From the NCBI GenBank assembly GCA_903915155.1, contig CAIWRU010000148.1, forward strand, positions 1 through 49,199: 49,199 bases of DNA. Direction: 5' to 3'. Source of the DNA: an uncultured Mucilaginibacter sp. Its GTDB lineage: Bacteria > Bacteroidota > Bacteroidia > Sphingobacteriales > Sphingobacteriaceae. Position numbers and translations under genes: made by a program. Shown here piece after piece: positions 2,289 to 45,861 of this stretch (the first letter of the stretch is position 1; each line of letters starts with the position of its first letter). The notes beneath the pieces were generated by a model that saw nothing but the letters and a program-made list of their open reading frames with translations, was not told the origin of the DNA and ran no database searches.

Positions 2289-3716
2289 ATGCAAAGAGAG
2301 CAGATTTCCGTTTTTGACATGTTTAAGATCGGGATAGGTCCGTCAAGTTCGCATACACTTGGTCCGTGGCGTGCTGCGCAGCAATTTTTGCAGGTATTGC
2401 AACGGCAACAGGCCTTGCCATTGGTTGAAGGAATAAGGATATTTTTATATGGTTCACTGGCCAAAACCGGGAAAGGCCACGGTACTGACATAGCCATACT
2501 ACTGGGCTTGAGCGGCGATGACCCTGTAACTTTCGATGTAAACGCTATCGATTCAAAAATTGAGTCGATTAAAACATCGCATAAGCTAATGCTGGCCGGA
2601 ACAGATGAGGTTAACTTTGTGGTTGATGATGACCTGTTGTTCCTGTTTAACGAAAGTTTACCCTATCATCCCAACGCGGTAACCTTCCAGGCGTTGCTAA
2701 TGGGCGATAAAGCCATATCGGCAACCTATTATTCCATAGGTGGTGGTTTTGTAGTTAAAGATGGCGATCAAGGTCAGCAAAAAGGCGAGGTCGACCTACC
2801 GTTCCCAATTGATACCCCAGGCGATCTGCTGCACTGGTGCATGAAAACCGGCCTCAAAATATCAGGGGTGGTAATGGAAAATGAGCTGGCCTGGCGCACC
2901 GAACAGGAAACAAAAGCAGGTGCGCTAAATATTTTCAGGGTGATAAAAGAGTGCGTATACCGCGGCTGCCATACCAAAGGCAATTTGCCCGGCGGCCTTA
3001 ATGTATCGCGCCGCGCCGCAAGCCTAAACCGCAAATTAATAGGGGAGCAGGCCTACAATAATTTTGATGAATGGATAACCGCCATTCGGCAAACGGGCAG
3101 CAGCTTCAAGAATATTTTAGATTGGGTAAGCTGTTTTGCGTTAGCCGTTAATGAGGAAAATGCTTCGTTCGGCCGCGTGGTAACCGCGCCAACCAACGGG
3201 GCAGCAGGCGTTATACCTGCCGTACTCATGTACTACATAGCATTTTGCGATGGCTATACCGATGAACAGATACTTAATTTTATGTTCACCGCATCGGAAG
3301 TAGGCAGTATATTTAAAAAAGGGGCCACTATATCGGCAGCTATGGGCGGCTGCCAGGCCGAAATAGGTGTATCGTCTGCAATGGCTGCTGCTGCGCTTAC
3401 AGAGAATTTAGGTGGTACCCAGCGCCAGGTATTAATGGCTGCCGAAATAGCCATGGAACATCACCTCGGCCTAACCTGCGACCCCATTGGCGGCCTTGTG
3501 CAAATACCTTGTATCGAGCGTAACACCATGGGCGCTATAAAAGCCATAACAGCATCACAACTGGCCCTGCAAAGCAACCCCGAAAACGCTAAAGTAAGTT
3601 TAGATGCCGTAGTGCGTACCATGTGGCAAACCGCCCAGGACATGAACTCCAAATACAAAGAAACATCCGACGGTGGCCTGGCAATAAACATACCTATAAG
3701 TTTGCCTGAGTGTTAA
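2289..3716 (+). CDS. sdaA: L-serine dehydratase, single-chain iron-sulfur type
   Basis: Converts L-serine to pyruvate and ammonia with a [4Fe-4S] cluster. At 475 residues it is the single-chain form (beta plus alpha domains fused). The beta domain opens with [21 protein letters not shown]. The catalytic alpha domain carries the family block [18 protein letters not shown]. Three cysteines, C355 (GGCQAE), C397 (LTCDP) and C408 (QIPCIE), have the 42/11 spacing of the cluster ligands in characterised single-chain enzymes. The stop overlaps by 4 bp with that of the convergent GDSL lipoprotein gene. Together with the SerB fusion in this window it points to active serine turnover, though the two are not linked in an operon. 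Confidence 0.96.
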
Positions 3717-4423
3717 TGCTTTTTTATTCTTTCAATAACCATCGGCGCCAACTGGTTTACCCACAGAGTGTACATTGTCCCCGAAGGATGCAAACCGTCA
3801 GGTGCAACTAAGCTCAAGTCGTTCGCTGCTTCCCTTGAAATGCCCGTTATATCTAAATAATTAACACCAGCGTTTAAACTTTCTTGTTTATTAATAGCAT
3901 TAAACTGGTCAATCTCGGGGCTTATGAAACTTTGCCTTGATTTTCCAAAAGGCGTTACCCCATAATCGGGTATCGACAATACAAAAACTCTCGTACTGTC
4001 GCCCCCGGCGAAATTTATGGCGGCGTGTAAAAGTTGTATGAAATTGGCGCGATAATGTTCCTGTGTCAGCCCGTCGTATTGGTCGTTTACGCTTATAAGT
4101 AAAGTAACTATCTGGTATTTATTATTGGTGATGTTGCTGTTGGCTATCCCGGCTATCAGGGCATCGGTTGTCCACCCTGTAACAGCAATTATTGTTGGTG
4201 CAGGAACGTTGAACCCGCCCCGGGTTAATGCATGGGCTAACTGGACAGGGTATGATTCCGAAGCAGGAACTGATTGCCCAATGGTATATGAATCGCCTAA
4301 AGCAAGATAATGCTGGGTCGTTGTATCAGGCGAGGCAACAATTTTTGATGCTACTTCAGCAATAGGCTTTTTACACCCGGCAAACATTACCATACTTACC
4401 AATAGCAATTGTAATGTTTTCAT
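3713..4423 (-). CDS. SGNH/GDSL-family hydrolase lipoprotein (copy 1)
   Basis: A 236-residue exported esterase/lipase-like protein. The signal peptide ends in lipobox MFAGC, so it should be lipidated. SGNH blocks are in order: block [12 protein letters not shown] with the nucleophilic Ser, block [14 protein letters not shown] (the Asn of the oxyanion hole), and block V PDGLHPSG with the catalytic Asp and His. The substrate cannot be told. It is last in a four-gene minus-strand operon, 11 bp after a close paralogue (4435-5181) with which it shares long identical stretches such as [18 protein letters not shown] versus [18 protein letters not shown]; this is a tandem duplication. Confidence 0.9.
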
Positions 4424-29715: not shown

Positions 29716-29757
29716 AATCAGCGCAATCAAAAGAATCAGCTAAAAATCAGCGGTCTA
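29716..29757 (-). repeat. CGCTGATT word repeat, arm 2
   Basis: Reverse complement reads AGACCGCTGATTTTTAGCTG then ATTCTTTTGATTGCGCTGAT. It shares words and the leading AGACCGCTGATTT with arm 1 at 28196-28235. Its end touches the asnS stop. Confidence 0.5.
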
Positions 29758-31203
29758 AAACTCCGCATTCTTCGGGTACCTTGGGAAAGGTATCACATCC
29801 CTTATGTTCCCCATGCCAGTAACGAACAGTACTAAACGTTCAAAGCCCAAACCAAAACCTGCATGCTGACAAGCGCCGAACCTGCGGGTATCCAGGTACC
29901 ACCACAGTTCTTCTTTTGGTATGCCCATTTCGTCCATGCGTTGTTCCAGTTTGTCCAAACGCTCTTCACGCTGCGACCCGCCTACTATCTCGCCAATGCC
30001 GGGGAATAGTATGTCCATCGCGCGAACAGTTTCGCGACCCTGTGCATCCGGCTCATTCTGGCGCATATAGAATGCTTTTATCTCTTTTGGGTAATCGGTT
30101 AATATCACCGGTTTTTTAAAGTGTCTCTCCACCAAGTAGCGCTCGTGTTCTGATTGCAGGTCGGTGCCCCAGCCTTCAACCGGGTATTGAAACTTCTTCT
30201 TTTTATTGGGTGTTGATTCTCTTAATATTTCAATAGCCTCGGTATAGGTAAGGCGCTCAAAATCGTTATCTAAGCAGAATTTCAGTTTATCAAGTAAACT
30301 CATTTCCGAGCGCTCGTTCTGTGGCTTTTGTTTTTCTTCTTCGGTTAAACGCTGGGTTAAAAATTCCAGGTCTTCTGCGTTTTTGTCCAGCACATATTTG
30401 ATCACATATTTCAGCAATTCTTCCGCCAAATTCATGTTGTCGGTCAGGTCGTAGAACGCCATTTCTGGCTCTATCATCCAAAACTCGGCTAAGTGACGGG
30501 TAGTGTTCGAGTTCTCCGCCCTGAATGTTGGCCCGAAAGTATAAATATCGCTCAGAGCCATCGCACCAAGCTCGCCTTCTAATTGACCTGATACGGTAAG
30601 GTTGGTTGGGCGACCGAAAAAGTCTTGTTTAAAATCTATCTCGCCGGTATCTGTTTTTGGTACATTGTCCAGGTCGAAATTGGTTACGTGGAAAGTTTCG
30701 CCTGCGCCCTCAGCATCTGATGCGGTAATGATCGGTGTGTGCAAATAAACGAACCCTTTCTCCTGGAAAAACTGGTGAACAGCAAATGCCAGGCTGTTAC
30801 GCACACGGAAGATAGCCCCAAAAGTATTGGTGCGGAAACGCAGGTGTGCTTTTTCGCGCAAAAACTCAAGGGTCTGCCTTTTAGGCTGTAAGGGGTATTC
30901 TTCGGGGTCGCAATCGCCCAGTATTTCAATATCTTTGGCTATAACTTCAAATTTTTGTCCCTGGCCTAATGAGGGTATCAGTTCACCAGTAACACTAATG
31001 GCTGCGCCAAAGGTTATGCGTTTAAGCAGGGCGGGGTCGGTGTTTTCAAAATCAACAACAATTTGCAGGTTACTGTTGGTCGAGCCATCATTCAATGCTA
31101 TAAAACGGTTTTGGCGAAAGGCGCGTACCCACCCCTTAACGGTTACATCAATTCCGGTTTGCTCACTCTGTAATATTGCTTTTATTTTTGTCCGCTGGCT
31201 CAT
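29755..31203 (-). CDS. asnS: Asparaginyl-tRNA synthetase
   Basis: Charges tRNA-Asn with Asn. The 482-residue class IIb enzyme has the N-terminal OB-fold anticodon-binding domain (about 15-105; [20 protein letters not shown]), motif 1 near [20 protein letters not shown], motif 2 ([26 protein letters not shown] in two parts) and motif 3 [15 protein letters not shown]. HAEFxM-like [13 protein letters not shown] separates it from AspRS. Having AsnRS means that Asn-tRNA need not be made through mischarged Asp-tRNA, which is relevant to the odd GUC tRNA-like genes further on. Confidence 0.97.
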
Positions 31204-44856: not shown

Positions 44857-45333
44857 TTATTCCAGCGTTATCTGCCTTTTAATGCTTTCTTCCAATGAGA
44901 TGAAGGTTTCGGTACGTTGTACGCCGGTTATGCCTTGTATTTGCTCGTTCAATATCTCACGCAGGTGTGTGGTATCGTGGCATACAATTTTGGCAAAAAT
45001 GCTCCAACTGCCTGTGGTATAGTGTAATTCAACAATTTCTTTTACGTCTTTCAGCTGTTTTACAGCCTCGTTGTATTGAGACCCCTTTTCGAGGTATATG
45101 CCCAAAAAGGCGGTTATATCATAACCTAGTTTTTGCGGATCAACTTCCAAAGTGGCGCCTTTGATAACACCCATCTCCTCCAACTTTTTCATACGCACAT
45201 GGATAGTTCCGCCCGAAACGATCAATTCTTTAGCGATTTCCGTGTATGGAGTGGTCGCATTTTTCATTAAAATCGATAAAATCTGAATGTCAAGATTATC
45301 AATTTCTAAATTTTGGGCTTTTCTATGTGTCAT
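44857..45333 (-). CDS. Lrp/AsnC-family transcriptional regulator
   Basis: A 158-residue DNA-binding protein. The N-terminal winged HTH is LEIDNLDIQILSILMKNATT, PYTEIAKELIVSGGTIHVRM. The C-terminal ligand-binding RAM domain is GYDITAFLGIYLEKGSQYNE and ending ETFISLEESIKRQITLE. It likely responds to an amino acid and oligomerises. It is divergent from the tRNA-like unit, sharing the AT-rich 45334-45430 region, so it could regulate that promoter; this is inference. Confidence 0.93.
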   Translation of the reverse strand: MTHRKAQNLEIDNLDIQILSILMKNATTPYTEIAKELIVSGGTIHVRMKKLEEMGVIKGATLEVDPQKLGYDITAFLGIYLEKGSQYNEAVKQLKDVKEIVELHYTTGSWSIFAKIVCHDTTHLREILNEQIQGITGVQRTETFISLEESIKRQITLE

Positions 45334-45406
45334 AAATTTTAAATTCTATACTAATATACAACATTAATTAAAATAAAACTAAAAATAAAATTATTTTGTT
45401 GAAATA

Positions 45407-45438
45407 TTTGCAAGGAATTGATAGGTCTGTTAGATTTG
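45407..45438 (+). promoter_or_regulatory. Promoter TTTG-N20-TAGATTTG of the tRNA-like unit
   Basis: TTTG (45407-45410) and TAGATTTG (45431-45438) form a good Bacteroidota -33/-7 pair with a 20-bp spacer. Downstream, GTTCTTTAAAA (45466-45476) resembles a NusB/S10 boxA, the antitermination site of rRNA leaders. The first tRNA-like RNA starts at 45488. Confidence 0.65.
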
Positions 45439-45487
45439 TAATAAGCAAATAACCAATTGCTAACCGTTCTTTAAAAACAAAACACAA

Positions 45488-45599
45488 TGTTGGGTGGTGA
45501 AATTTTTGGCAGACACACCTCCTTGTCCCGGTGGCGGAGATCATAGAAAACCCGAAGCGGGCTAACTACTCTGTGGAGGTTCGAATCCTTCCCCAACAG
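45488..45599 (+). tRNA. tRNA-like RNA 1, class II-type, anticodon GUC (Asp)
   Basis: The 112-nt sequence folds as a tRNA. Acceptor is TGTTGGG (45488-45494) with CCCAACA (45592-45598) and discriminator G. The D arm is Leu-like: GTG (45497-45499), a 14-nt loop with TTGGCAGA, CAC (45514-45516). The anticodon stem is CCTCC/GGTGG, with one U-U mismatch, and the loop TTGTCCC reads GTC at 45525-45527. The variable arm (45535-45574, 40 nt) has stem CGGAG/CTCTG, TAG/CTA and a tip hairpin CCCG-AAG-CGGG. T arm is GGAGG-TTCGAAT-CCTTC. CCA is not encoded. The AspRS identity bases G34, U35, C36, C38, G73 and G10 are all present. Class II bodies are otherwise Leu, Ser or Tyr. A 10-nt-loop alternative pairing, CACC/GGTG, is possible in the anticodon arm, so decoding ability is uncertain. 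Confidence 0.72.
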
Positions 45600-45634
45600 C
45601 AATTCGCCTGAGAAACGAATTAAGAATAACATAA

Positions 45635-45750
45635 TGTAGGATGGTGAAATTTTTGGCAGACACACCTCCTTGTCGCGGTGGCGAAGATCCTGGGAAACTC
45701 TTAGCAATAAGAATAACCACTTCGTGAAGGTTCGACCCCTTCTCCTACAG
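45635..45750 (+). tRNA. tRNA-like RNA 2, class II-type, anticodon GUC (Asp)
   Basis: The 116-nt second copy has acceptor TGTAGGA (45635-45641) with TCCTACA (45743-45749) and discriminator G. D arm is the same as copy 1. Anticodon arm CCTCC-TTGTCGC-GGTGG reads GTC at 45672-45674, again with the U-U mismatch. The variable arm (45682-45725, 44 nt) has stem CGAAG/CTTCG, TGG/CCA and a tip hairpin TCTTA-GCAA-TAAGA. The T arm is GAAGG-TTCGACC-CCTTC, fully paired. Relative to copy 1 paired changes occur in the acceptor, variable and T stems, which supports a conserved fold. The 35-nt spacer before it holds AATTCG-CGAATT (45601-45621), a possible processing hairpin. No encoded CCA. Confidence 0.72.
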
Positions 45751-45782
45751 CTCTTCTCATAATTTAGGTTTATAATTGGTTA

Positions 45783-45812
45783 GTAAAGGCCCCTGCCCAT
45801 CAGGGGCTTTAC
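45783..45812 (+). terminator. Terminator of the tRNA-like unit
   Basis: GTAAAG-g-CCCCTG pairs with CAGGGGCTTTAC around CCCAT (one bulged G). It lies 33 bp after the second tRNA-like RNA. Confidence 0.8.
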
Positions 45813-45820
45813 TTATTTTA

Positions 45821-45846
45821 GGCCCCCCGGCCCCCTAAAGGGGAAG
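45821..45846. repeat. GC-rich repeat after the tRNA-like unit
   Basis: GGCCCCCCGGCCCCCTAAAG then GGGAAG. It is a member of the stop-adjacent repeat family, here after an RNA terminator and not a stop codon. Confidence 0.6.
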
Positions 45847-45861
45847 CGAGTAAATTTTTAT

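Follow-up and report, generated by a model that had tools for sequence, protein, structure and literature searches.

The RNA pair and its neighborhood

The window, by which we mean the whole stretch of 49,199 nucleotides that was analyzed, comes from an uncultured Mucilaginibacter genome (the host) and carries two tRNA-like RNAs in tandem on its forward strand. Copy 1 (45488..45599, +, 112 nt) has a GUC anticodon at 45525-45527 and a variable arm at 45535-45574, with U1 at 45488, A72 at 45598, and G73 at 45599. Copy 2 (45635..45750, +, 116 nt) has its GUC at 45672-45674 and its variable arm at 45682-45725, with U1 at 45635, A72 at 45749, and G73 at 45750. CCA is encoded at neither copy. A Bacteroidota-type promoter, TTTG-N20-TAGATTTG, was assigned upstream (45407..45438, +) by sequence match to what we take to be the consensus, and the same two-box pattern recurs within 150 nt upstream of the RNA at 45 of 75 and 27 of 77 loci, compared with about 0.5 expected and a maximum of 3 in shuffled sequences. 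ARAGORN called no tRNA genes in the window, and Rfam returned no match at gathering score in the window and none at E up to 1 in positions 45380-45860. The window also holds a gene for asparaginyl-tRNA synthetase (AsnRS; 29755..31203, −), not adjacent to the RNA pair, whose product is the predicted user of the free asparagine discussed below.

Directly after G73 of copy 2 lies a 3′ element (45751..45821, +) with a terminator hairpin (45782-45813) and a T-rich tail. This element (CTCTTCTCATAATTTAGG... followed by the terminator hairpin) occurs elsewhere in the host without a tRNA-like RNA, at G000:C9:25211-25259 (L031, L033), where it may form an independent small RNA. Five same-genus genomes carry, immediately upstream of it, stubs of 48 to 59 nt that have an acceptor stem, a D-type hairpin, and a T arm and lack an anticodon arm (on the forward strand, L045 589-637, L046 567-615, and L048 587-634; in reverse-complement coordinates, L047 about 622-680 and L051 about 630-680).

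Divergent from the RNA pair, 154 nt from copy 1, is a gene encoding an AsnC-type regulator of 158 aa (44857..45333, −). The closest relative of this protein with a solved structure is E. coli AsnC (2cg4, 130.1 bits, versus 52.5 bits for Lrp, 2gqq), and its best NCBIfam model is AsnC, 83 bits ahead of the other models; since its score of 175.9 bits is below the equivalog cutoff of 227 bits, we call it AsnC-type only. In a clustering of the proteins encoded around 72 RNA loci, each stretch being 4 kb or longer (three that were shorter were dropped, and second loci of some genomes were included), the divergent AsnC-type regulator was the sole recurring family, present at 45 of the 72 loci at 92 to 233 nt from the RNA and absent from the stretch read at the remaining 27, and no other family was found at more than 8 of the 72. 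A divergent AsnC-type gene was likewise present at 51 of 79 loci among the matches listed in a set of named genomes described below. In E. coli, asnC is divergent from asnA. The 8 Bacteroidia asnA stretches that we searched contained no AsnC-type gene. Among 40 genomes without the RNA, 11 have an AsnC-type gene (E up to 1e-20), and inspection by eye of 13 such loci from these genomes revealed no common partner.

Structure, distribution, and conserved determinants

A preliminary description of the locus had proposed two tandem tRNA-like RNAs, and its main structural statements were borne out: both copies have a 7-bp acceptor stem, a 3-bp D stem, a 5-bp T stem, and a GUC anticodon, with variable regions of 40 nt (copy 1) and 44 nt (copy 2). 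The five-position anticodon stem of both copies contains the reported U-U mismatch, at 29-41, which is kept throughout the genus but is mostly C-G elsewhere. Of the variable arm described as having three stacked parts, the arms are present, but the innermost hairpin differs in register between copies 1 and 2. A minimum-energy fold of one strand recovered the acceptor, variable, and T helices and differed in the D and anticodon region, so that the assignment of these two arms comes from comparing relatives.

Structure was evaluated in two alignments. In a MAFFT alignment of 24 sequences from four families, assessed over 28 pairs against 500 shuffles and slid controls, 95.4% of cells pair, compared with 90.1% in shuffles (0 of 500 reach the observed value) and 47.9 to 60.1% in slid controls; 9 of the 28 pairs change on both sides, compared with 5.7 in shuffles (7 of 500), while the number of further pair types was not beyond chance (166 of 500 shuffles reach the count). 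When 103 distinct sequences were aligned to a covariance model, a procedure that leans toward the structure, 97.6% pair versus 89.3% in shuffles (0 of 500) and 51.6 to 63.2% in slid controls, and 16 pairs change on both sides versus 8.5 (0 of 500). The paired changes between the two window copies that were noted earlier are real and accompanied in relatives by covariation beyond chance, and this covariation supports the tRNA cloverleaf (7-bp acceptor, D, anticodon, and 5-bp T stems). The variable region ranges from 37 to 121 nt across 90 members. The arm varies in its outer part but retains GGGATAAA or GGGAAAC opposite TAACC at its inner base (for example in L049, L050, L221, and the window copies); the retained sequence may mark a site of contact.

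When 60 relatives were searched at the DNA level, the tRNA-like RNA was recovered in 35 of 36 genomes of the genus, mostly as two tandem copies and in some genomes as single copies at one or two loci; in the remaining genome (G015, 71% complete) only the 3′ element was matched. The pair is also present in the same-genus genome G033 and in Mucilaginibacter sp. X4EP1. The search for relatives by covariance that had been proposed was carried out with a model (R1) built from 24 sequences of four families, with a member cutoff of at least 65 bits. It matched 72 of 396 Bacteroidia genomes, among them the host, across 19 families. Among the matches listed, those at or below 61 bits were of ordinary tRNA size except for one (G239, 56 bits), which on reading is a long-armed member and was left out of the counts. 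Twenty loci below the cutoff in non-carriers were inspected, of which 19 are tRNA-Leu and 1 is a short-armed relative, and a laxer model search of 40 non-carriers gave nothing above 60 bits. In a 392-genome sample of the phylum, 3 of the 40 genomes matched at E up to 1e-13 lie outside Bacteroidia (G650, G658, and G713).

Named genomes were searched with a DNA pattern that spans the D loop and the anticodon, is blind to the acceptor stem, and fixes GUC and C38; the resulting set partly overlaps in genomes with the 90-member set below. At least 120 stretches match, and the 80 listed come from Mucilaginibacter, Pedobacter, Chitinophaga, Algoriphagus, Cyclobacterium, Dyadobacter, Spirosoma, Neolewinella, and others. 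Of these 80, 79 hold a model match (105 matches in total), the exception being a metagenome-assembled genome labeled Gemmobacter; one listed match is labeled Ignavibacteriales, for which contamination is possible. CCA directly follows 13 of these 105 listed members. We found no account of such RNAs in a literature search that had few subscription papers and no preprints in reach.

Two further observations concern atypical relatives. G092, which belongs to the genus of two long-armed carriers, has a 76-nt relative (L194 1500-1576, −) with U1-A72, G73, anticodon AUC, and a short variable loop, suggesting that the long arm may be dispensable; this genome, which is without GlnRS, was kept among the non-carriers according to the model verdict. 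At L130, weak model matches at 3291-3397 and 3619-3731 (14.4 and 25 bits) upstream of a full copy may be decayed copies.

Base identities were counted in 90 members, defined as matches of at least 65 bits in 75 selected stretches, with most same-genus stretches left out. U1-A72, G2-C71, and G73 are each present in 90 of 90. Over the 89 members counted for the anticodon loop (L122 lacks part of it), the anticodon is GUC in 84, UUC in 3, and CUC in 2; U35-C36 is found in all 89, C38 in 87, and position 33 is U in 73, G in 11, and C in 5. Among the matches listed from named genomes, U1-A72 occurs in 104 of 105, G73 in 105 of 105, and U33 in 92 of 105. According to the review PMC9976931, the strong determinants for Asp are G73, G34, U35, C36, and C38. 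All five are present in both window copies, as the preliminary description had reported, and are conserved in the family, whereas G10, which it also listed, is not conserved in relatives. In that review, U1-A72 is also stated to confer amidation of Asp-tRNA-Asn and G1-C72 to prevent it (PMC9976931), and the family has the U1-A72 first pair of a GatCAB substrate. The determinants for charging with Asp and a mark for amidation are thus combined in these RNAs. They depart from tRNA-Asp in the first pair (U1-A72 rather than G1-C72 in 90 of 90) and in having a region of 37 to 121 nt rather than a class I variable loop. Since the G1-C72 of bacterial tRNA-Asp is said in that review to help position the 3′ end in AspRS (PMC9976931), U1-A72 could lower charging.

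Among 40 ordinary tRNAs of the host, U1-A72 was found only in tRNA-Asn and two tRNA-Gln; the fourth tRNA starting with U is the initiator, whose U1 is not paired with A72. The suggested check for a normal tRNA-Asp(GUC) showed that one is present in the host genome, and the tRNA-like RNAs are therefore extra. The acceptor/T branch is an ordinary 7/5 branch, neither lengthened nor shifted as in allo-tRNA, selC* tRNA-Cys, and tRNA-Sec. Glutamate-type anticodons occur in five members (UUC in L088, L092, and L121; CUC in L102 and L109), and we speculate that these RNAs are charged with glutamate and yield glutamine.

Amidation and asparagine genes in carrier genomes

We compared 40 carriers of the RNA with 40 non-carriers, hand-picked from the 396-genome Bacteroidia sample and spread over families; the p values ignore shared ancestry. 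GatCAB, judged by gatB alone, was found in 40 of 40 carriers, including the host, versus 24 of 40 non-carriers. A genome with GlnRS does not need GatCAB for Gln-tRNA. GlnRS was above cutoff in 23 of 40 carriers and 18 of 40 non-carriers, and among these genomes gatB was present in 23 of 23 carriers versus 2 of 18 non-carriers (G047 and G369; Fisher p 1.5e-9, ancestry ignored). The contrast holds within families f1, f2, and f36, while f67 has an exception in G369. G047, a genome without the RNA, has at G047:C19:17848-20151 a 1120-aa open frame with a gatB match (363 bits) and, beyond it, a region of AspRS/AsnRS type, which resembles a fusion of GatB with a synthetase.

AsnRS was above cutoff in 79 of 80 genomes, the miss being a carrier (G101, 91% complete). 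AsnA was above cutoff in 7 of 80, two of them carriers, and just below it in the non-carrier G043. Because of relatives, all 80 genomes show an AsnB-family match at E up to 1e-3; the family was therefore counted only at its curated cutoff, above which matches may include paralogues, giving 67 of 80 genomes and 32 of 40 carriers. Eight carriers fall below that cutoff (G000, which is the host, G346, G312, G037, G318, G379, G249, and G285), and none of these has an AsnA match. Five non-carriers also fall below the AsnB cutoff, of which G147 and G068 have AsnA. For the other three, G369 has GlnRS and gatB, without AsnA or AsnB above cutoff and with no RNA found; G250 is without AsnA, AsnB, and the RNA; and G109 is like G250 and also without gatB. 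These three speak against the asparagine carrier reading given below. The host itself has AsnRS, GatB, and GlnRS, no AsnA match, and a single AsnB match at E 1e-5, below cutoff. Given an AsnB-family match in 32 of 40 carriers and AsnA in two, the RNA would not be the sole route to asparagine in all carriers.

AspRS was read in the host and 19 other carriers at two positions that we take to govern Asp/Asn specificity. The P. aeruginosa Asp/Asn enzyme carries His at the first and no Lys at the second, and the E. coli enzyme carries Leu and Lys, respectively. The second position is Lys in 20 of 20 carriers, and the first is Leu in 11, Phe in 4, Lys in 4, Gln in 1, and His in none; the host agrees with E. 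coli, not with the P. aeruginosa enzyme, at both. Judged from these residues, the carrier enzymes fit an AspRS that would reject tRNA-Asn yet accept the GUC RNA.

Proposed role and comparison with known systems

Taken together, U1-A72, the co-occurrence with gatB, and the AsnC-type neighbor indicate a specific function. The preliminary description had missed these three features, and its broader idea of a nonstandard role is supported in part, by the conserved Asp determinants and by the presence of a normal tRNA-Asp beside the extra RNAs. The reading that we favor, on balance and by sequence evidence, is that the two copies belong to a conserved family of tRNA-like RNAs that are likely charged by AspRS and would be amidated by GatCAB, serving as dedicated asparagine carriers under AsnC-type control. 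AspRS would charge the RNA with aspartate, GatCAB would read U1-A72 and convert Asp-RNA to Asn-RNA, and asparagine would then be freed from the RNA and used by AsnRS; to our knowledge, no enzyme that releases asparagine from Asn-RNA has been described. The AsnC-type regulator would match the supply of the RNA to asparagine, and the long arm, weakened anticodon stem, and frequent loss of U33 would bar the RNA from decoding. More tentatively, and with somewhat less confidence than we attach to the charged and amidated carrier as such, a non-decoding tRNA could thereby act as a reusable cofactor that turns AspRS and GatCAB into an asparagine synthase, replacing AsnA/AsnB in Mucilaginibacter and some other Bacteroidota.

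The main rival is that the same charged RNA acts as a regulator. The RNA would be charged and amidated alike, and its state, or its binding of AspRS or GatCAB, would be an asparagine signal without bulk synthesis. The conserved determinants suit this reading equally well, and both the AsnC-type gene divergent from the RNA and the AsnB-family genes above cutoff in most carriers speak for it. However, in eight of the carriers tested, the host among them, neither an AsnA match nor AsnB above cutoff was found, which argues for a synthesis route and not just a signal, and we regard a purely regulatory RNA as unlikely, if a serious contender.

Less probable again is synthesis of asparagine on the ordinary tRNA-Asn through a nondiscriminating AspRS and GatCAB, with the tRNA-like RNA having an unrelated role. 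Such a route has been demonstrated elsewhere and suggested for some Bacteroidetes (PMC4206432), and the U1-A72 of the host tRNA-Asn would permit it. Against it, the AspRS of all 20 carriers examined has Lys at one position and never His at the other, and the tracking of the RNA by gatB in GlnRS genomes would be left unexplained.

The remaining alternatives were set aside. An adaptor or donor accepting serine or leucine, as envisaged in the preliminary description, is most improbable. G73 and the long arm, both present, suit SerRS, and the D arm resembles that of tRNA-Leu, with most of the next-best matches of the model being tRNA-Leu, but the conserved GUC and C38 would be superfluous for SerRS, which needs neither, the six host tRNA-Leu all have A73 whereas the family has G73 in 90 of 90, and the arm length is unconstrained while XUC with C38 is conserved; leucyl charging is thus disfavored, and for seryl charging nothing further was found in support. 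We give as little credence to the possibility that in Mucilaginibacter the RNA is mainly a processing leader freeing the 3′ RNA at 45751-45821: although that element begins directly after G73 of copy 2, is near-identical across the genus, and also lies behind the short stubs at other loci, relatives outside the genus (L032, L049, and L050) have the RNA without the element and keep the determinants, and a simple small-RNA leader was rejected accordingly. Least credible is a tRNA that decodes Asp codons and brings in aspartate or, by intended mistranslation, asparagine. The complete cloverleaf with GUC speaks for it, but the host already has a normal tRNA-Asp(GUC), 16 of 89 members have G or C at position 33, the U-U mismatch in the anticodon stem runs throughout the genus, and U1-A72 would be harmful in an RNA that was amidated and decoded.

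If the asparagine carrier reading is correct, a tRNA has been retained for making an amino acid, not for decoding, which would explain why GatCAB is kept in Bacteroidota that have both AsnRS and GlnRS and would offer a directly testable case of an RNA as a dedicated biosynthetic carrier. It also bears on annotation, as these RNAs are missed by ARAGORN and Rfam and the genomes using them could pass for asparagine auxotrophs or for genomes with a relaxed AspRS.

The nearest known system is tRNA-dependent asparagine synthesis on tRNA-Asn, described for Bdellovibrio bacteriovorus with a nondiscriminating AspRS and GatCAB (PMC4206432). According to the same paper, 18 genera, including some Bacteroidetes, have AsnRS, GlnRS, and GatCAB and no Asn synthetase, and synthesis on tRNA-Asn was suggested for them (PMC4206432); we offer the tRNA-like RNAs as another possible carrier beside tRNA-Asn. 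As in Bdellovibrio, Asp charging followed by GatCAB amidation is predicted on an RNA with U1-A72 in a genome that also has AsnRS and GlnRS. Here, however, the RNA predicted to act as carrier is not tRNA-Asn but an additional one that bears an Asp anticodon and has a long arm, and a relaxed AspRS would be unnecessary.

Compared with bacterial tRNA-Asp(GUC), the family shares the five strong AspRS determinants and G2-C71 and differs in its first pair, in the size of its variable region, in a U33 that is not fixed, and in being additional to the normal tRNA-Asp. Like tRNA-Sec, which also carries one amino acid being turned into another, it has a long variable arm; unlike tRNAs of the tRNA-Sec type, whose acceptor is lengthened according to PMC7609411, it keeps the 7/5 branch, and no Sec, Cys, or Ser context was found. 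The D-arm sequence resembles that of class II tRNA-Leu, a probable ancestor, from which the family is distinguished by G73 instead of A73, an XUC anticodon, U1-A72, and a longer arm. Finally, the arrangement recalls asnC-asnA of E. coli in that an AsnC-type gene is divergent from a presumed asparagine-making function, with the difference that the partner of the regulator here is an RNA gene.
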